Of a stretch of DNA of 64,000 nt, positions 6,945-64,000 are shown one piece after another. Each line of letters starts with the position of its first letter. Positions within the stretch are counted from its first letter, which is position 1. This DNA is from Capitulum mitella (Eukaryota > Arthropoda > Thecostraca > Pollicipedomorpha > Pollicipedidae), in assembly GCA_030062745.1 (NCBI GenBank), contig CP099842.1, positions 9,307,838-9,371,837 on the forward strand, given 5' to 3'. The notes under the pieces were generated by a model. The model searched no databases, was not told the DNA's origin, and saw only the letters and a program-made list of their open reading frames with translations. Both the position numbers and the translations under genes were made by a program.

Positions 6945-7069
6945 CGTCGAAGGCGCCGGCAGCGTAGTCGGCGTGGGTGCCGTAGAAGTCGGCGCCGGCG
7001 GCCGTGGCGTCGTCCCTGTGCAACCGGCCGTGGCTCGGGTCGGCGGCGCTCGGTCTCTCCTCGTCCGGC
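6653..7069 (-). CDS. TDG: TDG N-terminal exon (low-complexity, AT-hook-like end)
   Basis: Minus-strand exon ending in FPKKRGRKPKKLLEA plus two bases (AT), directly before a GTGAGT donor, and joining in phase to exon 5407-5569. The protein is a disordered N-terminus: a run of 12 glycines (GCC/CGC repeats at about 6911-6945), then G/Y/P-rich sequence, then the basic AT-hook-like KKRGRKPKK. Basic, disordered N-termini that grip DNA are usual for TDG. The 5' boundary is placed at the AG of ATGACCGCAG at 7071-7070, which gives one base completing a codon left in phase 2. The upstream array holds many similar acceptors, so the true start could differ. The exon with the initiator ATG was not identified. 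Confidence 0.75.
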
Positions 7070-7080
7070 CTGCGGTCATA

Positions 7081-7600
7081 AGGTGGCACGGTCACACGAG
7101 GTCCGGCCTGATGACACAGGGCGGCACGGTCACACGAGGCCCGGCCTGATGACACAGGGAGACACGGTCACATGAGGCCCGGCCTGTGGTCAGAGGGTGG
7201 CACGGTCACACGAGGTCCGGCCTGATGACACAGGGAGGCACGGTCACACGAGGCCCGGCCTGATGACACAGGGCTGCACGATCACACGAGGCCCGGCCTG
7301 ATGACACAGGGCGGCACGGTCACACGAGGCCCGGCCTGATGACACAGGGTGGCACGGTCACACGAGGCCCGGCCTGAGCACACAGGGCGGCACGGTCACA
7401 CGAGGCTCGGTCTGATGACACAGGGCAGCACGGTCACACGAGGCCCGGTCTGAGGACACAGGGAGGCACGGTCACACGAGGCCCGGCCTGAGGACACAGG
7501 GCGGCACGGTCACACGAGGTCCGGCCTGAGGACACAGGGTGGCACGGTCACACGAGGCCCAGCCCGAGGACACAGGGTGACACTGTCGCACGAGACGGTC
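7081..7600 (-). repeat. 38-bp minisatellite abutting the TDG exon acceptor
   Basis: About 13 copies of a 38-bp unit. Read on the minus strand, each unit is GTGACCGTGCC, then a CCCTGTGTCATCAG acceptor-like end, then GCCGGGCCTCG. The real exon junction (GTGACCGTGCCACC, TTATGACCGCAG, GCCGGACGAGG) is the last, slightly diverged unit. The array therefore repeats the intron end plus the first bases of the TDG exon. Most units keep a CAG/G acceptor. Confidence 0.93.
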
Positions 7601-47340: not shown

Positions 47341-47689
47341 ATGTCCCAGAAGAACACTCTCTTCAACTACTTTCAACGAGCCAAACCAACACAGACTTCA
47401 GCGCAGAACTCGTCAGGTAGCACACATTCTTCTAACAGCGCTACTCCGAAACGGCCATGTCCAAAACAGACTAAAAGCTCAGACAGTGCCAAGGGCAAAA
47501 ATGGGAGAGCAAAACCATTCAAACGACTTCGGCTCCAGAGCGACGATGATGACAGCGAAAATGATCAGAGCCTGGCCAATGGAAAGACCATCAGATTAAC
47601 TGAAGCAGCTTCCAAGGAAGCCAGCACAGAGCTGGAACTGGATTCGGAGCTTGATGAACCAGCTGAAGATTCTGAAGACGATTACAAAC
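47341..47689 (+). CDS. MSH6: MSH6 exon 1 (PCNA-binding N-terminus)
   Basis: MSH6 pairs with MSH2 (MutS-alpha) to recognise base mismatches and one-base loops in nuclear DNA. The first exon encodes MSQKNTLFNYFQ: KxxLxxYF is a PIP-box variant (human MSH6 has QSTLYSFF) that tethers MutS-alpha to PCNA. A basic, serine-rich stretch follows, with likely nuclear-localisation signals (KRPCPKQTK, KPFKRLRL), then an acidic tail. The donor is C/GTAAGG after 47689, phase 1. An acceptor-like TTTTTTTACAG ends at 47313, so the start may be preceded by a 5' UTR intron. The gene continues through 16 further exons to the window end. About 900 codons are present and the Walker-type ATPase is outside. Confidence 0.9.
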
Positions 47690-48089
47690 GTAAGGGTAAT
47701 GAGTGCTGGATTGGTCACGAGAACTTGTGTGGTTAATGCGGAACTGGGCTTAAAACTCCATAAGCGTTTTGCTGAACTGGAGTTCCCTTTGCTTGTGCTG
47801 AAAAGAAAGGTAACATTATAGGCATAATCCAAGCTTCTTATATTCTAATGGATCTTATGCGGATCTCAAATCCTGTCATGTATTTTGCAGATTAATTATA
47901 TGCTGTGCCTAGGGTTTGTTTGGCAGTTTCCGTGTGGGAGTGCGTAATTCCAAACTGACTTTAGAACCATGACAGAAAGCTTGCAAGTTTCAGCAAAACC
48001 GTGATATCCAGCACAGAACACACTTTTCACCTTGGACATGGTGGACCATGTGTTTGAGGTTTTTTAATGTTCCCTGTGCTTTATTGTGA

Positions 48090-48235
48090 CGTTTGTTTCT
48101 CAAAATTCAGAGCTAAGAGGCACTAGAGCAGCTCGGAAGATGAGCACAGTAATAACTCATTGCGATGTTTTTTCTCGAAATTCGCAGCTAAAAGACACGA
48201 GAGCAGCTCTGAAGATGAGTACAGTGATGACGGTG
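48090..48235 (+). repeat. 75-bp tandem duplication of the exon 2 acceptor
   Basis: TTCTCAAAATTCAG then AGCTAAGAGGCAC and GAGCAGCTCGGAAGATGAG (about 48098-48146) recurs 75 bases later as the true junction (TTCTCGAAATTCGCAG, CTAAAAGACAC, GAGCAGCTCTGAAGATGAG). The upstream copy keeps an AG acceptor, but using it would break the frame. Confidence 0.9.
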
Positions 48236-48456
48236 TTGACTCAGCAGAAGACTCTCCCGTTAAAAAGACACCGAAGTCGAAGAAGAGGAAGGCGAACGGG
48301 ACTCCAAAACCGGGTGGATGCGCCGAAAAGAAGTTTCCAGGGACTCCGGCCACTCCCCGGACAGGGCTGCTTGGCGCGGCCAGCGCCAGAACACCGCCAA
48401 CTCCTCGCTCCATCGGCAGTGTAACAAAGTCCAAGCTTGCTACGTTTTCTGCCGAC
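48188..48456 (+). CDS. MSH6: MSH6 exon 2 (charged linker)
   Basis: Acceptor TTCGCAG at 48187, donor GTAAGT after 48456. It encodes KRHESSSEDEYSDDG, basic KKTPKSKKRKANG and proline/threonine-rich sequence ending TKSKLATFSAD. This is the disordered linker ahead of MutS domain I. I see no PWWP domain, which human MSH6 has here. Phase fits exons 1 and 3. Confidence 0.85.
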
Positions 48457-48725
48457 GTAAGTCATTCATTATCGCACTGACATTGCCGTGTAACAGAAAA
48501 CCACACCATGTGATGTTTTGTTGGCATATTTCTCAGGAGATATTTCGTTGCCAATTATTTTTGGAGTTAGCATGAGTAACGAAAAACGTTTGTTATTATT
48601 TTTATGCTCCAACAGTCGGCAGTGTGCGCCCTAACATCTCAATGAAAGCAGACTGCGTCGTCGTGTTTGTAGTTCCGGCGTCTGTGTAGCCTGGCCTAAC
48701 ATGACGCCACCTCTTCTCTGTCCAG

Positions 48726-48899
48726 TGTGAGCTGTCGGCGACATCTGTGCATGACCAGGGCGACAACTGGCCCCACCTGAAGCTGGACTTCCTGCAGCCG
48801 GGGAGACGCCGCGACGCGGCCGGCCGACGACCGGACCAGGCCGACTTCAACCCGCGCACCCTGCGCGTGCCGGCCGACTTCCTCGATAAGCAGACTCCG
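48726..48899 (+). CDS. MSH6: MSH6 exon 3
   Basis: 58 codons in phase 0. It encodes CELSATSVHDQGDNWPHLKL and DFNPRTLRVPADFLDKQTP. The last part matches human YDESTLYVPEDFLNSCTPG just before the mismatch-binding domain. The donor is CCG/GTACGG. The CAGACTCCG/GT end is repeated 41 bases downstream (to 48940), giving a second potential donor. Confidence 0.9.
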
Positions 48900-50706
48900 G
48901 TACGGCTAACGGTGACCGACTGGTAGCCCAACAGACTCCGGTGGAATTGTTAGAGATTGGCCAGTACACAAAGAGGCTTCGGTAGGACTGCCGGAGACCG
49001 GCCGGTAAGGCTACCGTTACCCGACACCCGCGCCCTGCAGTCGGACTGTGGATAATTCATGGCCATTGTGGATCTAGTCGTATGGCTAGGACAGTGGACA
49101 CGCACTTGCCAAACCCGATGTTTGGTGTCAGCCGGTGTGGGTCAGTAGACTTTTGACTTCATTTGGAATGACGATGAAGTCAAACGGGTATGCATGGACA
49201 ATACAAGCTGATAGTTTAACCCGGCACCGCTTGGCGTGTTTTTGCGCCCGCGACCGCCTGGGGGTGTCAAAAAGGAAGCCCATTTGCCATCTCAGGATCG
49301 AACCGTCGGATCTGAACCGGTCTACCGCCAATCGGTAGCCCTGAGCTTGCGATTCAGAAAATACGGTGTTAGCCCTGGTCACATGACCGACGGCGTAACA
49401 GGTCACGTAAAACGCATAACACGGCGTCAAAGAAAATGACATCAGTTTGTATCCTCGTATCGTCGGTAATAGTGGTCTTAGAGCCTTGAATTGGGTATGA
49501 AACGAAAGATCACGATCTTCTGCATCAAATGCTTGCCAGTGTTAAAATATTTCAGGTCAAGGTCAACATAAGTCAGGCGAAATATTGGTCATATTTATAT
49601 GCCAAACCTCGGTACATATTTGCAGACGTTTTGATCTACGTCAAAGAAAAAGAAGGTGGAACCCTCTTATGATCAGTTTTGCATTATCCGCGTTTCATCC
49701 AATCAAGGTCAGTCTAGATTGCACTGTCCTTCTTCACAGAGCAAACATGACACGCTGCGATTCTTAACTGCGTGAAGTACAGAACTGAAATGACATCTCG
49801 TGATAATTAGATATGCTCTGCTCTTTAGTGGGTCAGGGTCGAGCCAGGTCAGGACAAATAGTCGTTTTTCTTTTTTTGGCCAGGAACAATGTTTGCTGCC
49901 TGCTGCTACTGAACGATCTCCCACAGACAGTGTTGTGTTTCATTTCGTTTTGACATCTACCTGTGACGTGACCTGACCTGACAAGACCTCATGTTGCATT
50001 TGTTGAACTTCGCTGAGAAGCGCATGTAGATTTTCTTGTCTGACTTGAACGATGGGGAAAGTCAGCGGCATTAACCACAATACATCAACCACAATGCAAC
50101 TCAGTCCAATTGCCATCATGCATGTGACCAAGCATGACCTCTGTTGTTGACATGTCACAGTTGTATAGCCTTTTGTGGACCGTTTCCTGTGCAAATCCTA
50201 GTAATTCATGCATTATACTCGCAGATATGATTAAAAAAAAAACGAAGCATGTTCGTGCCACCGCTTGAACAGGCGAAAACAAGCATGCAGTGGTTCACTT
50301 ATGACGTCATATCTCCATGACCTGACCTGGCATGAAAATGGTTTTGATGTCAAGATATGTAGAATTCGTTTTTGAACCAATACTGAAAATTTGGTTGGGT
50401 TGACTGTAACGGTTCAGAAGTCATTCGAGAAAAACCGAGGGGTGTTCCATTTCACACACACCTCGCAGGCGGTGCTGGGTTAACACGCATGTTGTATGAC
50501 TTTTATGGAAAGAAATGGAAAAAAGAAGAATGCGACTGGTTTGTTCCATTATTACTAATAATGATGTAACAATCGTTAATTATTTTTAAGATGTTTGTCA
50601 TCACTGGTCCTTTTCGTTCACTTCGGATGAAAACTGGACGGGCTTGTTTCTGAGTCTCTAGGGTCTTCCCATTTATTTTGCTGTTTATTACGCCCCCCCC
50701 CCCCAG
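48900..50706 (+). other. MSH6 intron 3
   Basis: 1.8 kb with no other gene. It includes a tRNA-like SINE fragment at about 49230-49350 and several TGACCTGACCT/AGGTCAAGGTCA direct half-site repeats (49554, 49970, 50320). Confidence 0.6.
49230..49350 (-). repeat. tRNA-derived SINE-like fragment
   Basis: On the minus strand GATTGGCGGTAGACCGG is followed about 15 bases later by GGTTCGATCCTGAG, which fits a pol III B box, with an A-box-like TGGCGGTAG upstream. No complete cloverleaf forms and no tail was delimited. Confidence 0.4.
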
Positions 50707-50841
50707 GCTTTGCGACAGTGGTGGATGATCAAATCGGAGCACTTCGACTGCATTATCTTCTTCAAGATGGGAAAGTTTTACGAGATGTTCCACATGGACG
50801 CCATCCTCTGTGTCAAAGAGTTGGGTCTTCTGTTCATGAAG
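50707..50841 (+). CDS. MSH6: MSH6 exon 4, mismatch-recognition motif
   Basis: 45 codons after a C-run acceptor. It encodes [20 protein letters not shown], then [12 protein letters not shown] and KELGLLFMK. The Phe-Xaa-Glu of KFYEM is the universally conserved pair that MutS and MSH6 insert at the mismatch. The exon ends at the GTGAGC donor, phase 0. Confidence 0.96.
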
Positions 50842-50999
50842 GTGAGCGACCCACTCCTGTTTCACTGCCCGACCGTCGTTGCCGCTGTTTCTTGTCACTT
50901 GCCATGTACGTAATGTCATGCCTTTCCCTGCTCTGTACCTTTCAGAGAAAGTGGATGGAGCTTCCCGAACAAGTTTAATGTGTATCGGAGATGGTCTCG

Positions 51000-51480
51000 G
51001 CGGGTCGCTCCACTGTGGCCACCCCTCTGTGGCCGCCCGTCCGTGACTGTCCGTCTGTGATGGCCCTGTGTGGCTGCCTGTCAGTGACCACCCGTCTGTG
51101 ACCGCCCCTCTGTGGCCGCCCGCTGTGGTCCCCGCTCTGTGGCTGCCTGCCTGTGGCCACCCGTCTGTGACCGCCCCTCTATGGCCGCCCCGCTGTGGTC
51201 CCCCCTCTGTGGCTGCCTGTCAGTGACCACCCGTCAGTGGCCACGTCTCTGTGGCCGCCCCGCTGTGATCCCCCTGTGTGGCTGCCTGCCTGTGACCACC
51301 CGTCTGTGACTGTCCCTCTGTGACGGCCCTGTGTGGCTGCCTGTCAGTGACCACCCGTCAGTGACCACCCCTCTGTGGCCGCCCCGCTGTGATCCCCCCT
51401 GTGTGGCTGCCTGCCTGTGACCACCCGTCAGTGGCCTGCCGTCAGTGGCCATCCCTCTGTGGCCACTGGTCTGTGGCCGT
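51000..51480 (+). repeat. GC-rich minisatellite in MSH6 intron 4
   Basis: Irregular tandem units built from CTCTGTGGCCGCCCGCTGTG, GTCCCC, CTGTGTGGCTGCCTGCCTGT and GACCACCCGTCTGTGAC blocks, with a higher-order period of roughly 70-130 bases. Unlike the arrays at several other exons, it does not copy a splice junction. Confidence 0.85.
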
Positions 51481-51532
51481 TGACCGCTGTTCGGCCCCTT
51501 GTCCGGCTGACCGGGCCGACGGCCGCCGCCAG

Positions 51533-51668
51533 GGGGAGCACGCGCACGTCGGCTTCCCGGAGGCGTCCTACGGCCGGTACGCGGCCGCGCTGGTCGAGAA
51601 GGGTCACAAGGTGTGCCGCGTGGAGCAGACCGAGACGCCTGAAATGATGCAGACTCGCGTGGCCAACA
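51533..51668 (+). CDS. MSH6: MSH6 exon 5
   Basis: Acceptor GCCGCCGCCAG, donor GTGAGT after 51668, phase 1. It encodes [20 protein letters not shown], then [19 protein letters not shown]. The [10 protein letters not shown] block of MutS domain I is identical to human MSH6. Confidence 0.96.
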
Positions 51669-52086
51669 GTGAGTAGCGGACGGGACGCCGATGTTCGCCC
51701 GTTGGCCGGCATTGCAGTGGGCCGGCTGGAAGCTGGCGTGACGCAGAAATGACGGGCTGGTTCAGGCATCCTTCACCGTTTTAGTCATGGCTTAGGTGAT
51801 ATTGGTTAGGTTTAGAAATCTCCGATCCCGCCTTGGGGTATAGGTTTCTTTGTCTTCGCATTGTTCGATTTTTTTTCGGCTGGTCTTTGTTTCGAGTTGT
51901 TTGGCGCAGGTGACGGGCGGCTCACTTTCTAGCGGGCATCGTTCTCTGTCTAATGAGCTGACGTCGTTTACTGTCGATCTGCACCGTGGACGGACTAGAA
52001 GCTTGTGTGGTGGGCGATGTCGTGCTCGTCTCGTCCTGTGGAGAGTTATCTGCCTTAAACACGCGTATTCTGCGGTTTCTGTGCAG

Positions 52087-52229
52087 GTAGCAAGAAGACC
52101 ACCAAGTTTGACCGTGTGGTGTCGAGGGAGGTGTGCCAGATCACATCGCGAGGTACGAGGACCTTCAGCGCCGTCGAGGGGGACGCCACCGACGCCGAGC
52201 TCCGGTACCTGCTGGCCATCCGGGAACAG
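52087..52229 (+). CDS. MSH6: MSH6 exon 6
   Basis: Acceptor CTGTGCAG, donor CAG/GTGAGG after 52229, phase 0 at the end. It encodes KKTTKFDRVVSREVCQITSR and GTRTFSAVEGD, matching human [28 protein letters not shown]. Two further in-frame donors follow at 52268 and 52307 within a tandem repeat, each adding 13 residues (VRDWSSVTDIREQ, VRDWLIVTDIREQ) without a stop. Confidence 0.94.
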
Positions 52230-52430
52230 GTGAGGGACTGGTCCAGTGTGACGGACATCAGGGAACAGGTGCGGGACTGGCTTATTGTGACGGACATCAG
52301 GGAACAGGTGAGAGGCTGGCTCAGTGTGACGGACGTCAGAGGAACAGGTGAGAGACTGGCTCAGTCTGATGGGCATCAGGGAACAGGAGAGGGGCTGGCT
52401 CAGTCTGACGAGTATCGGGGAACAGATGGG
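52214..52430 (+). repeat. 39-bp array copying the exon 6 donor
   Basis: Six units of the type GACATCAGGGAACAG/GTGAGGGACTGGCTCAGTGT plus GACG. Exon-like ends fall at 52229, 52268, 52307, 52347, 52386 and 52425, spaced 39, 39, 40, 39 and 39 bases. The first four keep a GT donor; the last two have lost it. The first unit is the real exon/intron border. Confidence 0.95.
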
Positions 52431-52651
52431 ATGCCTTGCCGTGTCTGATGGACATCATATGACATGTGAGAAGCTAATTTGTTAACGATCTGAGTCGAGC
52501 GAAGATGTGCCTGATGAAAATCTGGTTGTAACGATGATTGCGTCACGAAAAAAGACCGCTGATTGTTGTGTGCTGTATTTTGTCGTTGCTGGCTTGGCTA
52601 CAGTTATGATGTGAAATATGTTATGGGCGATGTGGGTTTCTGTCTGACGAG

Positions 52652-53094
52652 CGGTGTTGGAAAAACTGTCGTTATCTAGTGTCAAGGAGCACCAAAAAAT
52701 CTATACTCGAAGAAAAGTTTTGTACTCCAAAATGGTCATTTGCCCCCCCCCCCCAAGACATGGGTATTCAACTCAACCAGAATCTGAAGTTGCTCATCGT
52801 ACCCCCTCCCTCGGTTGATGGTTTACCATCTTTACTTGGCCGCTGAAGTACACTCCGAACCCACGGCCAGCCGTCTCCCCCCGGTCAACGATTCAGCTGA
52901 CCTACCATCTAGACCCAGGAAACTGGTTTGCCCCCCCCCCCGCCAACGGAGCCGCTGGATCCGCCCATGCTGGCCACGTATGCTTGCCAAGCACCTAGTA
53001 AGTCCATGTTTTCCACATAAACGCATGACATTTTATACTCCAAAAGAGAATTTGTACTGCGACACCAGGAAGAAAAACCAGGTCTCCAACACTG
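52652..53094. mobile_element. hAT-type MITE in MSH6 intron 6
   Basis: Starts CGGTGTTGG, ends CCAACACTG, and is flanked by a perfect 8-bp duplication CTGACGAG (52644-52651 and 53095-53102). The interior shares TTTTGTACTCCAAAA and GAAAAACCAGG-type blocks with the copies at 14539 and 46242. It is longer (443 bp), with added C-runs. Confidence 0.9.
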
Positions 53095-53478
53095 CTGACG
53101 AGTCAAATAAAGTGACGAAAGTCTGAGTAACTTTAAAGACCGTTGAAGTGTGCTGCTGTGTGCTCGTTTCATCGCTGTATGATAAACATTATGCGAGTTT
53201 TATTCCGGGGAAATTTAGGTTTTGTTCTCTCATGCACCACTTTCCATGCCACATGCATTCATGCACACATCACGAAGATGACCACACCAGTGAACTGGGC
53301 AAATTAGCCAGGAAATGCGTGGTTGACGGGGAGGATACGGCTAAATTGGCGTGTCAAACCGGAAGTAGTGATGATGGTGCTGATCAGTCCCCCGATAAAT
53401 GGTTTTAAACATGAAATAATTTGCAAAACCCTCTCCTGTCGAAGTCAGTTTGTAAAGCATGTTTTCTTTGGTTTCCAG

Positions 53479-53613
53479 GAAGTGGACGGTGAACTGCAGT
53501 TCGGCGTGTGTTTTGTGGACACGTCGGTGGGACATTTTCGCCTGGGACAGTTCAGCGACGACTGCCACTGCTCCCGGCTGCGCACGCTGCTGGCCCATTT
53601 CCCACCCGCGCAG
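53479..53613 (+). CDS. MSH6: MSH6 exon 7 (connector domain)
   Basis: 45 codons, phase 0. It encodes [20 protein letters not shown], then [18 protein letters not shown]. Human has [36 protein letters not shown]. The donor is GTATGT. The following 4-kb intron contains the MDH1B-like gene on the opposite strand. Confidence 0.96.
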
Positions 53614-54179
53614 GTATGTGCCCTCGCCTGATAGAAAAGAAAAACGTCCTCTCACGTGGTGGTGTGGGTCCGTTTTTCACTACATGTTTTCAAGTCTGTT
53701 TTTCCCATAGCTTTTGGTATGTGTGTGTGCCTTTTTGTGTGATCAGGGTGTTCCTGTGGAAGGAGGAAGGGAAACAGACATTCTCCGGCTTTCAATTTAT
53801 TATGTCGCCACAAACCACCTCGGCGCTGAAATCATTTCTGCCCCGTTTGCACAAATTGAGCCTACCTTCTCGAGGAGGTGCACAGAAATCATTTTCGTCT
53901 CCTGGTTTCTGAAAAGACATTGCCTTGCTGGGGTATCTTCGGGCAGAAGTTGTTCCACTTCGTTGTCTCTTTGTAATCGTTGCTTGACCTCGCTGTCTCC
54001 GGGAAGGCGTTACTCCCTATCGTTCGGTTGTTCGGTCGATCGTTGTCTGCTAAGACGTAGAGGACTCTGACGTGGCCAGCTCCTGCCTCAGTCTTGTCAT
54101 CGCCTGCTGAAGCTTCGTCTCCGTTCGCTGCGGCTGCTGGCTGACTGGATGCCCCTCCAGCAGAAGGACAGTCGCCGCT

Positions 54180-54480
54180 CCCCTGTTACGGGTCCCTTCG
54201 CCCCCTCAGCAGAGGACAGTCGCCGTTCCCCTGTGGTGGATCCCTTGTCCCCTTCAGCAGAGGACAGTCTGCCGCTTCCCTTGTAGCGGATCCCTTCTCC
54301 CCTTCAGCAGAGGACAGTCTGCGCTCCACTGTAGCGGATCCCTTCTCTTCCTCAGCAGACGACAGTCGCCGTTCCCCTGTGGTGGATCCCTTGTCCCCTT
54401 CAGCAGAGGACGTTCGTCGCCGTTCGCCGTCCGGGCCTTGCTCTCCGTCAGACGACATTCGTCGCTGTTCCCCGGCGGAT
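54180..54480 (-). repeat. 48-bp coding minisatellite at the MDH1B C-terminus
   Basis: About six units of the type GTGGTGGATCCCTTGTCCCC, TTCAGCAGAGGACAGTCGCC, GTTCCCCT (plus-strand sense). It encodes a 16-residue acidic/serine repeat. One or two units differ in length by a base, so the last two units are read in another frame (CPLLKGTRDPPQGNGD). Confidence 0.9.
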
Positions 54481-57068
54481 GCCTTGTCAGGTTCTTGCTC
54501 GCCGTCGGTGTCCGATGGTCGCCGTTCCCCGCTGGCCGATCCGTGCTGTCCCTCGGCCGAGAGAGAGCGCCGCGCGTCGGCGGACGACGAGCCCGGCTCG
54601 CCTTCACCGTCCGAGGGGCCCGACGCGTCGCTGGCGTCGCCGTACACGGACGAGGCGCAGGTGGAGATGGTGCAGTGGCGGCCGGACGGCGACAGGCGCA
54701 CGCCGCAGCGGCCCAGCCACTCGACCATCTGCGCGGCGGCGGCGCGCACCTCGGCGGCGCCCTCCGGGCCGAGCGGCGCCGCCTGGCACACGCGGAAGTC
54801 GCGGGCCACCATGCGCGCCGGCGCGGCGAACACGAGCCGCTCGGGCACGCCGAACGAGCCGTCCGACGCCACGCCCAGCGAGCGCACGTGGCCGTCTTCG
54901 TGGCCGGCCCACCACTGGCGCAGCGTGGCGGCCAGGCCGATGGCCAGCGCCAGCGGCGTGACCTCGGCGCCGTCGGGCAGCAGCGCCGAGCCGGCGCGCC
55001 GCGCCGCCAGCCGCGGCAGCCGGCCGCGCAGCGTGCCGCTCTGGAAAAGCACGTCGAGCAGCGGCCGTCGGTAGCCAGGCGGGCCGCGGATGGCGCCGGC
55101 GTGGCGGCTGACCGAGGCGGCCTCCAGGTCGAGCCAGCTGCGGCCCGCCGGCGGGTTGCCCCACTCGACCAGGCCGTGCACGTCGTGCGCGGCCACGCCC
55201 AGCTCGGCGGCGATGAGCGCGCGCAGCTGGTTGACGCGCGGCTGGCAGAGCGCGATCACGTTGTTGGGCGGCAGTCGCGACAGGTGCAGCAGCGCCACGG
55301 TGGCCGCGAAGCAGGGCAGCCGGCCGCCGGCCACCACCACGCGGCAGTGGCTACTGGCCGTGGCGTCGATAGCGACCGCATACTCGCGCATGCGGTCGAA
55401 CAGCGCCGCCACCTCCTCGTCCGGCACGTCCGGTTCGTCGTCGTCGGCGGCGGCGGCGCCCGGCGCGCGCTCGGTGTCGGCGTTGGCGGACGCGTCCGAC
55501 TCGGTCGCGTCGGTGGTTTGCCCGTCTGGGCTCTCGTCCGTTGTCGGCTCGCCGGGCGCGGCGGCAGTCGTGGCGCCAGCCGCTGTCTGCGGCTCCGGCG
55601 GCGGGGCGGCGGCGTCGGCGGCTGCCGGCTGGGCCACGGCCGGTGGGACAACGGCGGGGTCCGGCTGGTCCTGGGCGGACGGCGCAGGGACAGCGACGGC
55701 GTCTGACTTCCCCGGCTCTCCCGCGGCTCCGGCGGCCTCCTTCTCGGGACCGCTGGTGTCGCCGGGGGACTGCTCCCGGCCCTCGCCGTCTGGCTGGCTG
55801 CTGGCGGCTGGACCCGGGATTGAGTCCTCCACGGAGCCAGGGGCTGCTGCCGGGGCTGCCGTAGCCTCCGGTTCAGCCTCCTGCTGGGACTTCGGCTCTG
55901 ACACGTCCGGCGCCGCCGCCGCCGCTGCCGCCGCTGCCGCCGCCTTGGCCAGCTCCTTGGGGCTGACCGGCGGCGGCAGGACGGGCTCGACTCCAGGCAG
56001 CATGTGGTTGGCCCTGCCGCCCGAGCCCGGCCTCGACGCCATGTACTGCTCCATCTCCTCCTCCTCCTGCGCCTCGCTGTCCGGGTCCTCCTGGATGGTG
56101 GAGAGGCGGCGCGACTCACCGCTTTGCCACCGCGCCGATGACGGCGGCGACGACGTGTCCAGCTGCTGGGGCGCCGGCGCCGACTCGTCCAGCGTGATGT
56201 TGATGAGCGGCGGCGGCGGCGAGGCGGCCGGCGACGCGGCGCCACCGGCCGGGCTGGCCACGGCCTCGGCCGTCCGCTCGTCCTCGACGTCGCCGGGCGC
56301 CGGCGCCGGCTCGGCGGCGGGCTCAGCCGTCGCCGCGGGCGCCGCCTCGGCCGGCGGGCTGGGCGGCGGCGTCGGCGGCGGCGGCTGCCGGTTGGGCACC
56401 GGGTCCAGCACGATGACAATGGCGGCGTTGCGCACGGCCTCGCGCAGCGTCGGCAGCAGTGCCACCTGGCCCAACTGCGGGCTGGCCAGGTCGTAGAGCT
56501 CGGCGCGCAGCGCGGCCAGCTCCGGCGAGCGCGGGTCGCCCAGCAGCTGCATGCGCAGCGTCACGTCCTCGCCCAACACGCGGCCGGTGGCCAGCGCCGC
56601 CAGGAAGTGGTAGGCGGCGCCGGTGAGCGCGCCAATCACGGCCACGCTGGTGAGCCGGCGCTCGAAGGCGGTGCGCTCCTGGCGCCGCTGGCGCCGCTCC
56701 AGCTCCAGCTGCTGCGCCGTCTGGGCGGCCATCTGGCGCGCCGCGGCGAGCTCCGGCTCCGGCAGCGGCAGGCCGTAGTAGACGGCGGCCAGTTGCAGGA
56801 ACTCGGAGAGCCCGCCGACCAGCAGGCCGCGCCCGCCGCGCTGCACCAGCACGCGCCAGACCAGCGGCCCGCCCAGCTGCGCCGGCAGGTCCCAGCCCTG
56901 GGCGGCGCACGTGCGGCGCAGGTAGCACGGCCACTGCTCGGCCGGCTGCGGCTCCTTGTAGACGCGGAAGCTGGGCAGCTGCGCCTGCAGGCGGTCGGCG
57001 GCCGCCTCCAGCCGCGCGTACTGCTCACAGTCCGCCCGGCCGGCGATCACGAACTGGCTGGCGGCCAT
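54186..57068 (-). CDS. MDH1B: MDH1B-like protein, intronless, nested in MSH6 intron 7
   Basis: A single 960-codon frame on the minus strand. The N-terminus QFVIAGRADCEQYARLEAA and RGGRGLLVGGLSEFLQ match MDH1B, the divergent malate-dehydrogenase-like protein (human: KFVIAGRADCPYYAK, RGGKGLLLGGYNEF). A Rossmann-like segment runs to about residue 226. Then comes an Ala/Pro/Glu-rich insert of about 320 residues with a poly-alanine run, after which the fold resumes: NNVIALCQPRVNQLRAL, VEWGNPPAG, VRSLGVASDGSFGVPERLVF. The catalytic histidine of true MDH (WGNHS) is absent, as in human MDH1B (WGNIS), so malate dehydrogenase activity is unlikely. The C-terminal 130 or so residues are a 16-residue repeat (GERRLSSAEGDKGSTT type) that slips frame near the end. 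MDH1B is mainly known from ciliated tissue and testis. Lack of introns suggests retroposition, or intron loss. Confidence 0.88.
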   Translation of the reverse strand: MAASQFVIAGRADCEQYARLEAAADRLQAQLPSFRVYKEPQPAEQWPCYLRRTCAAQGWDLPAQLGGPLVWRVLVQRGGRGLLVGGLSEFLQLAAVYYGLPLPEPELAAARQMAAQTAQQLELERRQRRQERTAFERRLTSVAVIGALTGAAYHFLAALATGRVLGEDVTLRMQLLGDPRSPELAALRAELYDLASPQLGQVALLPTLREAVRNAAIVIVLDPVPNRQPPPPTPPPSPPAEAAPAATAEPAAEPAPAPGDVEDERTAEAVASPAGGAASPAASPPPPLINITLDESAPAPQQLDTSSPPSSARWQSGESRRLSTIQEDPDSEAQEEEEMEQYMASRPGSGGRANHMLPGVEPVLPPPVSPKELAKAAAAAAAAAAAPDVSEPKSQQEAEPEATAAPAAAPGSVEDSIPGPAASSQPDGEGREQSPGDTSGPEKEAAGAAGEPGKSDAVAVPAPSAQDQPDPAVVPPAVAQPAAADAAAPPPEPQTAAGATTAAAPGEPTTDESPDGQTTDATESDASANADTERAPGAAAADDDEPDVPDEEVAALFDRMREYAVAIDATASSHCRVVVAGGRLPCFAATVALLHLSRLPPNNVIALCQPRVNQLRALIAAELGVAAHDVHGLVEWGNPPAGRSWLDLEAASVSRHAGAIRGPPGYRRPLLDVLFQSGTLRGRLPRLAARRAGSALLPDGAEVTPLALAIGLAATLRQWWAGHEDGHVRSLGVASDGSFGVPERLVFAAPARMVARDFRVCQAAPLGPEGAAEVRAAAAQMVEWLGRCGVRLSPSGRHCTISTCASSVYGDASDASGPSDGEGEPGSSSADARRSLSAEGQHGSASGERRPSDTDGEQEPDKASAGEQRRMSSDGEQGPDGERRRTSSAEGDKGSTTGERRLSSAEEEKGSATVERRLSSAEGEKGSATREAADCPLLKGTRDPPQGNGDCPLLRGRRDP

Positions 57069-57590
57069 CGCTGGCTGTCGGGGTCGCGCGCCTCCTCAGC
57101 AGTCAGCGGTCGGGGCGCGCGGGTCTGTTATGTAACGGCGCGAGAGCCATCCGGCCGGCGAAGGAACGGCACGGAGAGGTGGTGGAAATGGACGACTGGT
57201 TTCACCTCCTGGATGCTTCGGTTTAAATGTTGCCCACGATCGCCACTTACTTCATAAATGAAAACCAGAATCACAAGGTACAACCATGGCTAAAGTCAGC
57301 AGCACTGCTGAAGATCATTTCTGTTTCATGCTGGCAGAAATTGGGTACGGACCACGTGACATTTCAACTGCAAGAGCCTTTGGTCGTTAATGAAATTGTC
57401 GGCAGGCTGGTTGCAAAGTAATGCGCAGTAACATTTTCTGTTTGAGGTGAAATGATGTTGGTATATCGGGACGTAATTTGCCGGGTATTAGGCTGGTTCT
57501 TCCGTATTTTATTTTTTCAGACATTTTTCTAGCGAAAATAGCGAAACTCTAACTGCCTCAGTAATACGATTACCACCTGGTCTTTTCCAG

Positions 57591-57807
57591 CTGCTGCAGG
57601 CTCGTTCGTCGGCGCCGCAGAGGTCACGTGACGTGGTGGCGTCACTGCCGTCCAGCTGTCTGAAGGAGACACTCCGAGTCGGTGACGAGTTCTGGACGGC
57701 CGAGAAGACGCTGCGCTTCCTGGCGGAAACAGAGTACTTCCGGGAGGAGGAGGACGAAGGCGGCGAGATGCAGTGGCCGCAGGCCCTGCTGGACATGACC
57801 AAAGACG
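57591..57807 (+). CDS. MSH6: MSH6 exon 8
   Basis: Acceptor GGTCTTTTCCAG, donor GTGAGA after 57807, phase 1. It encodes LLQARSSAPQRSRDVVASLP, LKETLRVGDEFWTAEKTLRF and LAETEYFREEEDE. Human: [43 protein letters not shown]. An alternative acceptor five codons in (CTGCTGCAG) exists but is less consistent with phase. Confidence 0.9.
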
Positions 57808-58019
57808 GTGAGATTCGCCGGGTTATCCTGTCTGGATAGAGAGCATACGCTGTTTCTCGGTCCCTAGGCTTGATGGCCGTCCCCACTAGCTCTGAACTTT
57901 GGCGGTGTCCGTCGTAAGGCAGCTGCAGTATTGGTCGCAGGTTATAGGGCACGACAAAACAAGTTATCCACAGTTGTGCGCATGGTTACGTTTGCTTCAA
58001 ACCATGCTGTTTGCTCCAG

Positions 58020-58137
58020 GCGATGCCCTGCACCTGTCGCCGCGCAAGGACCGTGATCTGGCACTACAGTGTCTGGGCGCCGTTACCTGGTACCTGCAGC
58101 TGAGTCTGCTGGACACCCAGCTGCTGTCCATGCGCAA
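58020..58137 (+). CDS. MSH6: MSH6 exon 9
   Basis: Acceptor TTTGCTCCAG, donor GTATGT after 58137, phase 2. It encodes GDALHLSPRKDRDLALQCLG, then AVTWYLQLSLLDTQLLSMR. Human: [36 protein letters not shown]. Confidence 0.93.
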
Positions 58138-58780
58138 GTATGTGTCGGTCCCCTGCGACAGTTGGAGATGATGTGGGCCGCCGCTCGTTCCGGGCCTCAT
58201 ACTGATGTCGACAGTGCGTCATTTCAGGCGATTGTCCGTGTGATGGACCGGTGGCGTTATTGTATGCCTTTGACTGGCTGCTTCCTCGTGCGTCCTCAGG
58301 TGCCCTCGTCCTTGCATGCTTTCTTTTGTGTGCTGATGTAAGTGATTGAAATGATCCGCGGAGCTCATCCCTTCTTTTGGTTCGTTACTGACTGACCGGT
58401 CACGCGTGGGTTTTGCTACAAGCCTCTGAGCGCCTTGGGTGGACAAGTGAGATTGTTTGTGCTCACATTGCGACATGATATTCCAAAACTGGAATGACTG
58501 ACTTCTGAGCACCTTGTCCATGACGTGTGCTAGATTCTTAGTTATTTTTCCTTATCATTGAGCGATGATCTGTAGATTGCAAGCTTCTCCCAACACTCAC
58601 AGTAGTGCATCCCTGCCAGGCTGTCGTTTACTGTTTTCAATAACCTGCGTATTCCTGTGGTTACGTTTTAGTATGGAGGCCACGTACCGCTGTGGTAGCC
58701 CTTGCCTGTCGGTCACCTTCTTCTGGTTCCCTTTGTACCCGTGAGGTGTGGAGGTGTGCAGTGACCTTTGGACGCTGATC

Positions 58781-58990
58781 GTTAGGTTCTCTCCGCACCG
58801 TTGTGTGGTGACCGCGGCGTGCTGATTTGTCAAGTTCAGGTGGTACCATTGCCATTTGGTGCCCGCTGGGTGCTGGTCTGTCAGGTTCTCCCTGTTCCGG
58901 TGTCGTGTGGTGACCAGTTAGAGCTGTTCTGTCAGGTTCCCACTGTACCGGTGTCGTGTGGTGAACGTTGGGTGCCGCTCTGCCAGGTTC
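58781..58990 (+). repeat. 51-bp array copying the exon 10 acceptor
   Basis: Five diverged units spaced 49-51 bases, each with an ...TCTGTCAG/GTTCTCCCTGTTCCG-like core (AGs at 58785, 58834, 58884, 58935, 58986). The last, CTCTGCCAG/GTTCTCGCTGTATC, is the presumed real exon 10 border. Confidence 0.85.
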
Positions 58991-59102
58991 TCGCTGTATC
59001 AGCCGCCGGACGTGCAGACCGGGACGGCTGAAGTGGACGCGACAGACCCGGCACCGGCTGGAGATTGGCGCCAGCGTCCGAGGACCCCACACTGGCCGCA
59101 TG
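58987..59102 (+). CDS. MSH6: MSH6 exon 10, frame disrupted or start uncertain
   Basis: Starting at 58987, the exon completes the AA left by exon 9 to AAG and continues FSLYQPPD. This fits the conserved F-x-x-Y-x-P-x-D after LLSMA/R in MSH6 (human NFEEYIPLD). The end, GGCCGCATG/GTGAGG, must be read in another frame to give ...GRM joined to VLDGVTL (human QRMVLDAVTL). The length of 116 bases is one more than phase allows. Either one base is extra in this assembly, or the acceptor is at 59002 (exon of 100 bases, frame intact but without the conserved motif). Confidence 0.7.
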
Positions 59103-59439
59103 GTGAGGGTCTGGTGCGCTGTCTGTTGCGGGGACGGCGAAAACTGTAAAATTGTTTTTGTCTAGACGTCAGTCGTTTCATTCCTTTTAAACGTAAACGT
59201 TTGCTAAAATTGCGCTGTTTGTTAGTTTGCTTGCCTTTTTGGTAAGCAACTTGCTTTTTTGAACCTGATGTCCAGCGGAGATGGCTTCAGAACGGTGTTG
59301 GCAGTGCCATTGCGGACGACGTTTGCTACTGGGGTCATCTTACTAGTAAGCCAGCCATTGACAGCTCCATGGTAAGCTGCACACTGACGGCGTACTTGCG
59401 GCCGGCGGACGGAGGCGGAGACGACTGGACATGGCGGCC

Positions 59440-59647
59440 GACTGCCCGCTGCCAGCAGGGGCTGGACGGGGCCAGCCTGACGGTACAGCCGACTGCCCGC
59501 TGCCAGCTGTGGCTGGACGGGCAGCCTGACAGTACAGCCGACTGCCTGCTGCCAGCAGGGGCTGGACGGGACCAGCCTGACGGTACAGCCGACTGCCCGC
59601 TGCCAGCAGAGCCTGACGGTACAGCCGAGTGTGCCCGCTGCCGACAG
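59440..59647 (+). repeat. 51-bp array copying the exon 11 acceptor
   Basis: Units of CGACTGCCCGCTGCCAGCAG, GGGCTGGACGGGACCAGCCT, GACGGTACAGC. Acceptor-like AGs lie at 59458, 59506, 59558, 59609 and the real one at 59647 (CCCGCTGCCGACAG/GTGCTGGACGGAGTCACC). The unit matches the intron end and the first 25 or so exon bases. An open frame runs through the array into the exon. Confidence 0.92.
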
Positions 59648-59763
59648 GTGCTGGACGGAGTCACCCTGAGGAACCTGGAGATCGTAGCCAACTCGGCGGA
59701 CGGCGGCACGGACGGCACGCTCCTGGGAGCGCTGGACACCTGCGTCACCGCCTTCGGAAAACG
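59648..59763 (+). CDS. MSH6: MSH6 exon 11
   Basis: It encodes [20 protein letters not shown] and [15 protein letters not shown], matching human VLDAVTLNNLEIF and TLLERVDTCHTPFGKR at the start of the lever domain. Donor GTACGC after 59763, phase 2. The 53 bases around the donor (ACCGCCTTCGGAAAACG/GTAC) are duplicated immediately downstream. Confidence 0.95.
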
Positions 59764-59856
59764 GTACGCAGCCGCGGTCCAGCGTGATCACACTGTTCAA
59801 CCGCCTTCGGAAAACGGTACACAGCCGCGGTCCAGCGTGATCTCACTGTTCAGTGT
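59749..59856 (+). repeat. 53-bp tandem duplication of the exon 11 donor
   Basis: ACCGCCTTCGGAAAACG/GTACGCAGCCGCGGTCCAGCG recurs 53 bases later with GTACAC in place of GTACGC. The second donor would add 53 bases and shift the frame. Confidence 0.95.
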
Positions 59857-60079
59857 GATGAACGGAGCTGGGCGACAGGCTGCGGCGTGACGGCGGATAT
59901 CGACGGTGTGCTAATAAACGTAACGGTGCGATGTTGAACTGAGTGTTGACCTAACAGTCCCTACCTGCCCGTGTGGGCTTTTCTTGGACGTAATTATCTT
60001 GTCATTTGTAATCTGGTTCTCTGACGTCCGTTTAGCTCCTCTGCAACGTGTTGCCCAGCTTATCCTCTTATAACTGTGA

Positions 60080-60982
60080 CTGACCCATTGTATTGGACAG
60101 TGTACTGCAGGCCTGGCTGTGACCGTCTCCCTGTGTTGGACAGTGTACTGCGGGCCTGGCTGTGACTGTCTCCCTGTGTTGGACAGTGTACTACAGTCCT
60201 GGCTGTGACCGTCTCCCTGTGTTGGACAGTGTACTGCAGGCCTGGCTGTGACCGTCTTCCTGTGTTGGACAGTGTACTGCGGGCCTGGCTGTGACCATCT
60301 CCCTGTTTTGAACAGTGTACTGCGGGTCTGGCTGTGACCGTCTCCCTGTTTTGAACAGTGTACTGCGGGTCTGGCTGTGACCATCTCCCTGTGTTGGACA
60401 GTGTACTGCGGGTCTGGCTGTGACCGTCTCCCTGTGTTGGACAGTGTACTGCGGGTCTGGCTGTGACCGTCTCCCTGTGTTGGACAGTATACTGCGGGTC
60501 TGGCTGTGATCGTCTCCCTGTGTTTTGAACAGTGTACTGCGGGCCTGGCTGTGACCGTCTCCCTGTGTTGGACAGTATACTGCGGGTCTGGCTGTGATCG
60601 TCTCCCTGTGTTTTGAACAGTGTACTGCAGGCCTGGCTGTGACCGTCTCCCTGTGTTGGACAGTGTACTGCGGGCCTGGCTGTGATCGTGTCCCTGTGTT
60701 GGACAGTGTACTGCGGTCCTGGCTGTGACTATCTTCCTATGTTGGGCAGTGTACTGCGGGCCTGGCTGTGACCGTCTCCCTGTGTTGGACAGTGTACTGC
60801 GGGCCTGGCTGTGACCGTCTCCCTGTGTTGGACAGTGTACTGCGGGCCTGGCCGTGACCGTCTCCCTGTGTTGGACAGTGTACTGCGGGTCTGGCTGTGA
60901 CCGTCTCCCTGTGTTGGACAGTGTACTGCGGGCCTGGCCGTGACCGTCTCCCTGTGTTGGACAGTGTACTGCGGGCCTGGCT
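60080..60982 (+). repeat. 43-bp minisatellite of 21 acceptor copies ending at exon 12
   Basis: Unit GGCTGTGACCGTCTCCCTGT, GTTGGACAGTGTACTGCGGG, CCT. TTGGACAG (or TTGAACAG) cores occur at about 60096, 60138, 60181 and then every 43 bases (44 at two units) to 60957. The final TTGGACAG/TGTACTGCGGGCCTGGCT is the true exon 12 acceptor. Each unit therefore holds the pyrimidine-rich intron end, the AG and the first 17-18 exon bases. Confidence 0.96.
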
Positions 60983-61120
60983 CTGCAGTCCGCTCCGTTC
61001 GCCGGCCGCCATCGCCGCCCGTTTGGACGCTGTCGACGACCTGATCTCGCGCGCTGACGTCATGGATGACCTCACCAGCCAGCTGAAACAGCTGCCCGAC
61101 CTGGAACGGCTCGTGAGGCG
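60965..61120 (+). CDS. MSH6: MSH6 exon 12
   Basis: The leading T completes the CG of exon 11 to CGT. It encodes VLRAWLCSPLRSP, then ARLDAVDDLISRADVMDDL and LKQLPDLERLVR. Human: LLKQWLCAPLCNH, DRLDAIEDLM, LKKLPDLERLLSK. Donor GTAAGT after 61120, phase 2. Confidence 0.95.
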
Positions 61121-61605
61121 GTAAGTCCGCTCCTGGACTCTGCCGGCTGTTTTGTAGGTTTGTACGGCAGTGGATCTCTCCTGTGATCTTCTGGTTCAAG
61201 CAGGGGCGCGGTGTGACGGGTACTGCATAGCTATAGGGTAAGCATATTTGAGTTAGCTTAAGTGGCAGCTGTTGGTTTATGACAGGGCCCGTTTGCATGT
61301 ATCGTCCTATTGAGGCTTCTGGCCTATCCTGGGGTCTTGTCGAGTGGATAAAACGTCATTTGCTTTCTTATTTGTAGCCACATAGCCTAATATTTCTCGA
61401 ATTATTTCACATCGGTTTCCCCAGGTGTCTCCCGATGCCTCTTTTCATCGGGGTGTTCTCTCCTTTGCACATGTTTGAAGTCCAAACATGTGAAAGTGCT
61501 GCCATTCATGGTGAATAACTTCACGAAAAACAGTCGGGCGGAACGTTCGGTTTGTTTCGCTGGGATGTCGCGGTCCCTGTGTGACGCGGTCGCTGGTGCG
61601 CGCAG

Positions 61606-61769
61606 AATCCACGTGCAGGGCAACATGAAACTGCGGGCTGGCAGCAGCCACCCGGACTCCCGCGCCATCATGTTCGAGGAGGCAAAGTACAGCCGGAGCC
61701 GCATCATGGACCTGCTGTCGGCACTCACCGGCTTCAAGCAGGCCTCCCAGCTCCTGAAGTCGGTGGCAG
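61606..61769 (+). CDS. MSH6: MSH6 exon 13
   Basis: It encodes IHVQGNMKLRAGSSHPDSR, then AIMFEEAKYSRSRIMDLLSA and LTGFKQASQLLKSV. Human: [31 protein letters not shown]. Donor GTACGT, phase 1. The intron then shows three 13-base units (61784-61818) each containing GTAAGTG. Confidence 0.95.
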
Positions 61770-61783
61770 GTACGTGGCTAGTG

Positions 61784-61820
61784 TGGTAAGTGCTGTGGTA
61801 AGTGGCTTTGGTAAGTGCGC
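61784..61820 (+). repeat. Three 13-bp GTAAGT decoy-donor units after exon 13
   Basis: TGTGGTAAGTGC, TGTGGTAAGTGGC and TTTGGTAAGTGC follow about 15-40 bases after the real donor GTACGT. Each contains an ideal GTAAGT. Confidence 0.8.
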
Positions 61821-62158
61821 AGCAGTTACAGCCTGGCAGGTTCTTAGCGGTGGTGGCTGACGTGGCCGCCGGGCCTGTGTAAGGGAGATGGGAGGCCGAG
61901 GATGGGCTTACGTTTTGATCGCCGGACCGCCCGCCTGAGGCGTTTGGTGATGACAGTTGTCACGTGCGCCCTGCAGTCCGGCTTTGTAATCGTATCCGAC
62001 CAGGTGGCGCAATGTTGTCTTCAGCTTGTGCTGAGCGCACTGGCGCCAATTTAGAGTGGCATGGATGGGACCCGCCTGGTCTGGAACTGGGCCGCGGAGC
62101 CGGCCGGCGCCCCTCCTCTTCGTGTAACGGCGCGTCTGCCCCCTGCTCCCTTCCGCAG

Positions 62159-62262
62159 GGGTGACGGCCGAGTTCAGCAGCTACCTGCTGCGCTGCTGCC
62201 TCACGCTGGAAAAGGACGGCGGCAAGTTCCCAGAGTACGACGAGGTGCTCGAGTTCTTTGAG
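62159..62262 (+). CDS. MSH6: MSH6 exon 14, followed by a GC-AG intron
   Basis: Acceptor CCCTTCCGCAG. It encodes VTAEFSSYLLRCCLTLEKDG, then KFPEYDEVLEFFE. The phase-0 end GAG is followed by GCAAGT, a GC donor with otherwise ideal context, and joins to TSFDQAEARK. Human: [24 protein letters not shown]. Confidence 0.92.
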
Positions 62263-62655
62263 GCAAGTTAGGCCTACTGACCGGGAATGTGGTGGCCTTG
62301 GACGTGTGTGGTGTTTGCAGAGCTTTCATTGTAGCTTCGCCTGGTTTTATTTGACTCAGTTTTGCATATGCGTTGAATTTTTACTGTCCGGACGCGTGTA
62401 ATGTATGGTGGGATCGACGCTGGGAATATGTTATAGTATGCGATAAACTTTGTGTTCTGATGACTCAGCGATATGGCAGCTGACTGCTGTTGCACGATGC
62501 CCCACGTCCTAGTATTGTGGCACCGGACTGTTTCTCACTGGGCCGTACTCTTCCTGTGAGGCCCTGGTACCGACAGCGTACCCACAGGCAGAGTGCCGTG
62601 GCTTGTTCGGCAGTGGTACACCGTCTCCGTGTAACTCAGCCGTCCGTGCCGGCAG

Positions 62656-62811
62656 ACGTCGTTCGACCAGGCGGAGGCCCGGAAGGAGGGACGAATCCTG
62701 CCTTCGGACGGCGTCGACGAGCAGTTCGACGCGGCGAAAGACGCGCTGGATCAGGTGCAGCAGGAGCTGGACGACTACCTCCGCGAACAGTGTCGGCACT
62801 TCGGCTGCAAG
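62656..62811 (+). CDS. MSH6: MSH6 exon 15 (clamp)
   Basis: 52 codons, phase 0: TSFDQAEARKEGRILPSDGV, DEQFDAAKDALDQVQQELDD, YLREQCRHFGCK. This is the coiled clamp helix region (human [32 protein letters not shown]). Donor GTCAGG. Confidence 0.95.
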
Positions 62812-62949
62812 GTCAGGCCCGATTCTCACCACGGCGAAGCCCGTGATTGGTTGTGAGGTCGGTCGTCGCAGCCGTCGGCCGGCTGCTACGCAGACCTGAC
62901 CCTCCGGTCGTACCACGTCATGTTGCTGCACCAACACACGTCATCCCGC

Positions 62950-63210
62950 CAGAGCAGACCACCCGTCAGACCAGGTCTAGATCATCCTGCTGTATCTGGC
63001 CATCCCGTCAGACCAGATCTAGATCATCCTGCTGTATCTGGCCATCCCGCCAGAGCAGACCACCCCGTCAGACCAGATCTAGATCATCCTGCTGTATCTG
63101 GCCATCCCGCCAGAGCAGACCACCCCGTCAGACCAGGTCTAGATCATCCTGCTGTATCTGGCCATCCCGTCAGACCAGACCATCCCGTCACACCAGACCA
63201 TCCCGTCCTC
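62950..63210 (+). repeat. About 60-bp minisatellite in MSH6 intron 15
   Basis: Four copies of GTCAGACCAGATCTAGATCA, TCCTGCTGTATCTGGCCATC, CCGCCAGAGCAGACCACCCC, some shortened. It does not include either splice junction of the intron. Confidence 0.92.
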
Positions 63211-63330
63211 ACCAGACCGTACCGTCCTCACAGCAGTCCTTAAGCCTTTAAGCCGTAACTTAAGCCCGTCCCAGTACACTGCGGAGCGCCTCGGCATCTC
63301 CGTCTGACTTGTCACCCTGGCCACCCGTAG

Positions 63331-63465
63331 GTGGTCTACTTCGGCCACGCCAAGAACCGGTTCCAGCTGGAGGTGCCGGACCACGCGGCCCGCAAGGCGG
63401 ACAGCTCTTACGAATTGCAGACCCAAAAGAAGGGGGCCAAACGCTACTGGACGGACACCACTAAG
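63331..63465 (+). CDS. MSH6: MSH6 exon 16
   Basis: 45 codons, phase 0: VVYFGHAKNRFQLEVPDHAA, then YELQTQKKGAKRYWTDTTK. Human: [40 protein letters not shown]. Acceptor CACCCGTAG, donor GTCGGT. Confidence 0.96.
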
Positions 63466-63915
63466 GTCGGTTGGCCCGTCCGCTGGACTGCCTGCACTGC
63501 GACTGTCTGCGTGGCGTGAAAACGAACGCCTCTGTAACGAAAGAAATCAAGTGAAATAACCGAGACAGTCAGATCCAGCCTGCAAACAATGTCAAATTGT
63601 CGAAAATAACTTAAATGATATGGCCGAAATAATGCGTATGACATGGCATAATCCGGGATGCAGACAATTCAACGTGTGCTTACGCTGCCCGTACCAAATT
63701 GAACGTTGCGAGACACCTGAAAACGAAATCGTATTTGCGTTTGGTCGCCACGGCCCCAGGCGTTGTGCGCGCAGTTCCTGCTCCCCGAGGCGACTCCCAG
63801 TCTGGGGGCTCAGGGTGCGGCGAACAGGTATCGTCGCGTCGTGTCCGGCCGCCGCGGACCGGCTCCGACCGACCGACTCTGACTCTGACTCTGACTGTGC
63901 CCGGGCGTGCGGCAG

Positions 63916-64000
63916 GAGCTGCTGTCGCGCCAGCTGGCGGCCGAGGAGCAGCGCGCGGCGGCGCTGCGCGACATCAGCCGCCGGCTGTTCGGCCGCTTCA
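63916..64000 (+). CDS. MSH6: MSH6 exon 17, cut by the window end
   Basis: Acceptor GTGCGGCAG after a short GACTCT microsatellite. It encodes ELLSRQLAAEEQRAAALRDI, then SRRLFGRF, matching human [28 protein letters not shown]. The exon continues past 64000, and the Walker A/B ATPase domain is expected downstream. Confidence 0.92.

Follow-up and report, generated by a model that had tools for sequence, protein, structure and literature searches.

In the barnacle Capitulum mitella, tandem arrays repeatedly run across splice junctions, so that exon ends are multiplied together with the adjacent intron ends. We analyzed a 64,000-nucleotide stretch of contig CP099842.1 (hereafter, the window; C4:9307838-9371837 in the searched assembly of 477,042,490 bases and 16 contigs), which contains 17 exons of the mismatch repair gene MSH6 and a probable TDG exon. 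An intron-side copy of the junction is present at 8 of the 40 MSH6 junctions and at 8 of 119 junctions in an independent, non-random sample of kinase exons. Probably, these arrays are mirage minisatellites, i.e., products of ordinary tandem duplication in exon flanks rich in guanine and cytosine (GC), tolerated because the copy at the exon edge still works. The phenomenon is already known in lancelets; what is new, as far as the literature searched goes, is the taxon and a rough rate.

Junction copies in MSH6

The MSH6 gene starts at 47341 and consists of 21 exons with 40 junctions, 17 exons lying in the window and 4 more in the downstream locus L002. Exon borders were set from the reading frame and from homology to human MSH6 and to the Msh6 of Pollicipes pollicipes (protein P0001), which maps exon by exon onto C4:9355256-9374184. 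At all 6 joins checked (exons 1/2, 6/7, 9/10, 10/11, 11/12, and 19/20), the joined exon sequence is present in P0001 and, in a comparison by eye, the window exons run on along this protein without insertion. The reading frame is joined through the outermost copy, which the initial annotation took for the true splice site.

To find junction copies, a probe of 25 exon plus 25 intron bases was taken at each junction and aligned to a stretch of up to 600 bases on its intron side, with 200 shuffles for each of the 32 junctions in the window. A clear tandem copy was found at 6 of the 32, namely, the acceptors of exons 2, 10, 11, and 12 and the donors of exons 6 and 11, with scores of 39-87 against shuffled maxima of 23-34 (Table 1), which bears out the arrays that the initial annotation had placed at these borders. 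In L002, scored without shuffles, the exon 17 donor has a copy (score 66), and so does the exon 20 acceptor (score 51), where only about 4 exon bases are included in the copy; the remaining 6 of the 8 junctions score 14-25. The gene total of 8 of 40 shows that the original estimate of about half the junctions was overstated; what does amount to half is the share of MSH6 arrays that overlap an exon edge. Nor did the weaker case proposed at the exon 3 donor stand, its score of 23 being not significant against a shuffled maximum of 24. The triplet of GTAAGT motifs reported after exon 13 does exist, but its score is marginal and the repeat is donor-like rather than a copy of the exon end.

Arrays were called with Tandem Repeats Finder (TRF). 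The exon 12 array illustrates their anatomy: its unit comprises 18 coding and 25 intron bases, all 20 decoys, i.e., the copies away from the exon edge, keep the AG dinucleotide, and 11 of these equal or exceed the score of the true site (9.7) under a splice matrix built from the junctions of MSH6 itself, the true exon 12 site included. The coding part of the unit encodes VLRAW, which is found in P0001 and corresponds to LLKQW in human MSH6, so that it was the array that took up coding DNA and not the reverse. Elsewhere in the gene, AG is kept in 3 of 4 decoys at the exon 10 acceptor and in 2 of 3 at that of exon 11, and in the single decoy of exon 2, where it lies just before 48113 and is weak; GT is kept in 3 of 5 decoys at the exon 6 donor and in the one decoy at that of exon 11. 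By TRF, the array upstream of exon 11 stops 22 bases before the exon, and a diverged junction copy still aligns. A similar array lies upstream of a probable TDG exon, with AG kept in 13 of 14 copies. The array described at 7069-7600 in the initial annotation is thus real, whereas the exon start remains only probable, given that the TDG protein search returned just environmental fragments and one incomplete protein of P. pollicipes, with no homologue to fix it.

The units differ from one another and, in a genome search that ignores simple repeats and highly frequent words, all 3 units tested matched their own locus only; the exon 12 unit is found nowhere else in the genome, and the 53-base unit of the exon 11 donor occurs at a single locus. 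As far as tested, therefore, no transposon spread these units, in agreement with the earlier view that they are unrelated. In introner-type transposon introns, splice sites are borne by repeated DNA, from which the single-locus barnacle units differ.

Placement of the arrays was compared with chance by random placement of the 10 TRF arrays in MSH6 non-coding DNA, allowing up to 40 exon bases and counting as overlap at least 5 exon bases. Of these arrays, 5 overlap an exon edge (1.6 expected, P 0.013), and the number rises to 7 (2.7 expected, P 0.005) when those no more than 25 bases from a junction are included; as GC is weighted more strongly, the respective P values become 0.02-0.13 and 0.007-0.07. 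When the count is made per junction, such that an intron may contribute one array twice, once from each end, 5 arrays span and 9 do not (0.8-1.2 expected to span, P 0.0008-0.005). Probes taken from MSH6 introns reached a score of at least 34 in 22% of 592 cases, as compared to 6 of 32 for the junctions.

An independent sample of kinase exons

Because MSH6 was chosen for looking rich in such arrays, a second sample was drawn independently of it. Searching the genome for Pfam kinases returned 138 matches, with sequence for 70 loci; the 88 matches used were not picked at random and represent the stronger ones, 47 without sequence having been left out and 3 in L055, which lie in one long open frame, excluded. 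Of the 119 exon ends called within the kinase domain by frame and splice score, 8 are accompanied by a copy of the junction (8 of 95 when the better-scoring sites are taken): one each at L038, L046, L047, L050, L062, and L073, and both ends of one L065 exon, the acceptor of which is weak (38 versus 31 when shuffled). None of the 119 junctions reached the score on shuffled targets (30 shuffles each), and neither did any of 119 probes from exon interiors, a mild control inasmuch as exon middles lie far from the intron. By contrast, 12 of 357 probes from intron interiors did, so that the junctions are not significantly richer than the rest of the intron (Fisher P 0.12). MSH6, in turn, is richer than the kinases (Fisher P 0.03), and 5 tests on the C1 loci L004 and L008 yielded no mirages. 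The copy in L046 is a perfect one of 50 bases; at the donor of the L065 exon, a 69-base unit is repeated 4.7 times with 98% match (L065:2317-2640), which looks like a very recent amplification. From their protein sequences, we take L046 to be GSK3 and L065 to be a CDK-like kinase.

The TRF arrays near the kinase exons include 6 that span a junction (1.3-1.6 expected, P 0.001-0.004), 17 in intron interiors within 600 bases, some of which may touch uncalled exons, and 1 confined to an exon. Array coverage is flat at 5-6% over the first 400 intron bases and falls to 2.5-3.8% beyond, and GC content peaks (0.64) in the first 40 bases of the kinase introns. In MSH6 and the kinases together, 11 arrays span junctions by TRF, 5 at donors and 6 at acceptors, with an exon overlap of 10-38 bases. 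The units of spanning arrays are longer than those of interior ones (median 59 versus 37.5, P 0.04), which chance spanning alone would favor. In both samples, then, arrays span junctions more often than random placement predicts, but kinase junctions are not clearly richer in copies than intron interiors.

Origin of the arrays

We favor the following sequence of events. A short segment that happened to hold an exon end and the adjoining intron end would have been duplicated in tandem, after which the array would expand and shrink like any minisatellite, presumably through slippage or unequal exchange. The exon-edge copy would stay a working splice site, kept by selection on the protein, since no other copy runs on into the remainder of the exon, and the other copies would become intronic decoys that the splicing machinery probably ignores. 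Turnover within the array would keep the copies alike and thereby preserve the AG or GT of the decoys. The excess at junctions may then reflect a tendency of tandem duplication to arise in GC-rich exon flanks, combined with tolerance, rather than a process aimed at splice sites. The arrays favor exon flanks and may, in addition, be drawn to the splice site itself.

Several observations weigh against this interpretation. Spanning arrays are about 3-6 times more common than under uniform placement in MSH6 and the kinases, and in MSH6 the excess is reduced but not abolished by GC weighting, so that a real preference for junctions is possible. Furthermore, divergence is no greater in spanning arrays than in interior ones (median match 83 versus 85.5%, P 0.84), and the older age that we looked for in them was not found; longer persistence at junctions is therefore not supported.

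The first alternative is that a mutational process targets junctions, e.g., transcription-linked duplication, R-loops, or splicing intermediates, and makes them hot spots. The excess of spanning arrays in both samples is what such a process would produce, and the initial annotation held that some process of this kind, or selective tolerance, was needed. We nevertheless consider targeting unlikely: the comparison of kinase junctions with intron interiors does not bear out the need for it, and array coverage is flat over 400 bases, with no peak at the junction.

A pair of kinase paralogs bears on the same question from another angle. Both GSK3 genes (L046 and L050, on C9 and C7) carry a mirage at the same acceptor; their exons are 95% identical over 234 bases, whereas farther into the intron the alignment (25) does not exceed the shuffled maximum (28). 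Over the last 24 bases of the intron, the two show no likeness (rank 565 of 1485 acceptor pairs), as independent origins, and hence targeting, would give. The 24 bases before the nearest decoy, however, are slightly alike (rank 13 of 1485), which leaves room for a shared origin, and the whole last unit, including its exon-derived part, ranks first of the 1485. From these sequence comparisons, we lean toward separate origins over shared ancestry of the two mirages, with repeated origin at one junction and a single origin followed by turnover both possible. A tentative extension is that junctions act as permanent minisatellite seeds, whereby the exon-edge copy, being unable to decay, would give rise to decoys again and again, and mirages would recur at the same junctions, as in the GSK3 paralogs. 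As a separate observation, the kinase paralog pairs L009/L010 and L046/L050 both lie on C7 and C9, and these two contigs may be duplicates of each other.

It is far less probable that the decoys are functional, tuning splicing or supplying in-frame protein variants, and the term "decoy ladder," if meant as a function, finds no support in this analysis. The frequent retention of splice dinucleotides, as in exon 12 and TDG, could be read in favor of function, but array turnover by itself should already yield near-identical copies. Among the 17 MSH6 decoys that were worked out, including 7 of the 20 of exon 12, 3 would give open in-frame inserts (13 or 26 residues from the first two decoys of exon 6, and 17 from the nearest decoy of exon 10), whereas the use of the other 14 would lead to a stop or a frameshift. 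Unit lengths are divisible by 3 in 6 of 13 cases, not notably above one third, and P0001 contains no insert at the joins checked.

Arrays of this type are known as mirages in amphioxus, where tandem duplications run across exon-intron borders at both 5' and 3' sites (PMC3087553, PMC3902484). According to these reports, the affected genes are Adh3 and the globins BflGb6 and BflGb9 (PMC3087553), to which TnC and PGBD5 were added (PMC3902484); the units measure about 10-160 bases, AG or GT is kept in many but not all copies, the authors' reverse transcription-polymerase chain reaction (RT-PCR) supports regular splicing, and somatic instability is reported (PMC3087553, PMC3902484). In the literature library and with the terms that we searched, no barnacle report of splice-junction minisatellites was found; the C. 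mitella genome paper (PMC8416341) mentions Tandem Repeats Finder once, and the P. pollicipes genome paper does not mention minisatellites or tandem repeats. The barnacle arrays resemble the mirages of amphioxus in that the units contain an exon end with the adjoining intron end, at 5' and 3' borders alike, and in that many, not all, copies keep AG or GT. They differ in the crustacean host, in a sample of junctions from many places in the genome, and in the number of decoys, up to 20 per junction. For amphioxus there is evidence from RT-PCR and somatic instability, whereas the barnacle arrays are known from one genome assembly alone.

According to a model reportedly proposed by Rogers and by Gao and Lynch in 2009, introns are gained when exon sequence is internally duplicated in tandem, and the arrays might be relics of such events. 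Splice-site sequence is duplicated in the barnacle as well, and the mirages of amphioxus globins have been proposed as a way in which introns are gained (PMC3087553). We find this explanation as improbable as that of functional decoys. The model makes a new intron from exon DNA, whereas the barnacle introns pre-exist and carry copies of one of their own ends: the units hold intron as well as exon sequence, and in the one intron compared, that after exon 11, the two ends have unlike units of 53 and 43 bases instead of a single duplicated exon segment on either side. Finally, an artefact of assembly or alignment, or chance similarity, is extremely unlikely, because, even though a one-base frame discrepancy in exon 10 indicates that the assembly may hold errors, the copies within arrays bear distinct substitutions, shuffled kinase targets never reached the score, and the pattern recurs on 6 contigs (C4, C5, C7, C8, C9, and C11).

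The barnacle arrays extend to an arthropod a lancelet curiosity that had been described gene by gene, and the kinase sample gives a rough rate for it. If the kinase rate holds genome-wide, several percent of junctions face near-identical decoys; in that case, the choice of splice site would rest on position relative to the exon and not on the sequence of the site. Such rows of near-identical sites are a natural experiment on the choice of one copy by the splicing machinery, on alternative splicing, and on intron gain, and they bear on why gene models may fail in genomes of this kind.

Gene model and other features of the window

Table 1. Exons of MSH6 and tandem arrays in the window. Scores are those of the junction test, each followed by the shuffled maximum.
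Feature	Position	Strand	Basis
MSH6 exons 1-6	47341-47689, 48188-48456, 48726-48899, 50707-50841, 51533-51668, 52087-52229	+	Frame and homology
MSH6 exons 7-12	53479-53613, 57591-57807, 58020-58137, 58987-59102, 59648-59763, 60965-61120	+	Frame and homology
MSH6 exons 13-17	61606-61769, 62159-62262, 62656-62811, 63331-63465, 63916 onward	+	Frame and homology
75-base duplication, 1.9 copies, across 3' splice site of exon 2 (exon start 48188)	48083..48225	+	TRF; score 53 versus 23
39-base units across 5' splice site of exon 6 (exon end 52229)	52209..52457; 5.3 copies at 52217-52425	+	TRF; score 52 versus 26
51-base units across 3' splice site of exon 10 (exon start 58987)	58803..58998	+	TRF; score 39 versus 24
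51-base units upstream of exon 11 (start 59648), diverged 3' junction copies	59437..59626	+	TRF; score 46 versus 34
53-base duplication, 96% match, across 5' splice site of exon 11 (exon end 59763)	59747..59852	+	TRF; score 79 versus 26
43-base array, 20.7 copies, across 3' splice site of exon 12 (exon start 60965)	60089..60982	+	TRF; score 87 versus 27
12-13 base repeat with three GTAAGT motifs, 13 bases past end of exon 13 (61769)	61782..61818	+	TRF; score 27 versus 24; weak
38-base array, 13.9 copies, upstream of probable TDG exon start 7069	7065..7594	-	TRF; exon start from frame and AG only
Array of like kind inside an intron, nearest exon edge 105 bases away	62941..63226	+	TRF
Intron-interior array, 54 bases from exon 5	51013..51479	+	TRF
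Non-junction array of similar type within MSH6	54152-54411		TRF

The predicted MSH6 product matches a human chain described as "DNA mismatch repair protein Msh6" (E 2.5e-198) and MSH6 2o8b_B (E 4.5e-193). Among the best 120 of 1177 matches, the closest Msh6 is that of P. pollicipes (P0001), with 83% identity over the searched region, and the Msh6 of Amphibalanus amphitrite shows 71% identity over 66% of that region. In exon 10, the one-base frame discrepancy relative to P0001 lies near the exon end, before a conserved RM, and may be an assembly error, a polymorphism, or a real defect. Two exons of earlier models were discarded: one at 63760-63828 (exon 18 of the first model), because human MSH6 and P0001 join exon 17 straight to the exon at 63916, and an extra 95-base exon at 59277-59371, because exons 10 and 11 meet as RM|VLD in both proteins. 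Exon 14 ends at a GC-AG intron (GAG|GCAAGT, at 62263). A phage search with exon 4 as the query gave no match.

The intron that follows MSH6 exon 7 contains, on the other strand, a nested intronless open frame of 960 residues (54189-57068, minus strand), which had no Pfam match at E 0.01 and the start of which, by eye, resembles malate dehydrogenase 1B. Upstream of the TDG exons lies a large 48-base array (10951-11931), for which TRF also gives higher-order units of 120, 168, and 216 bases. Two arrays of TTAGG, the arthropod telomere motif, are located inside the contig, at 34599-34655 and 34748-34846 of the window.

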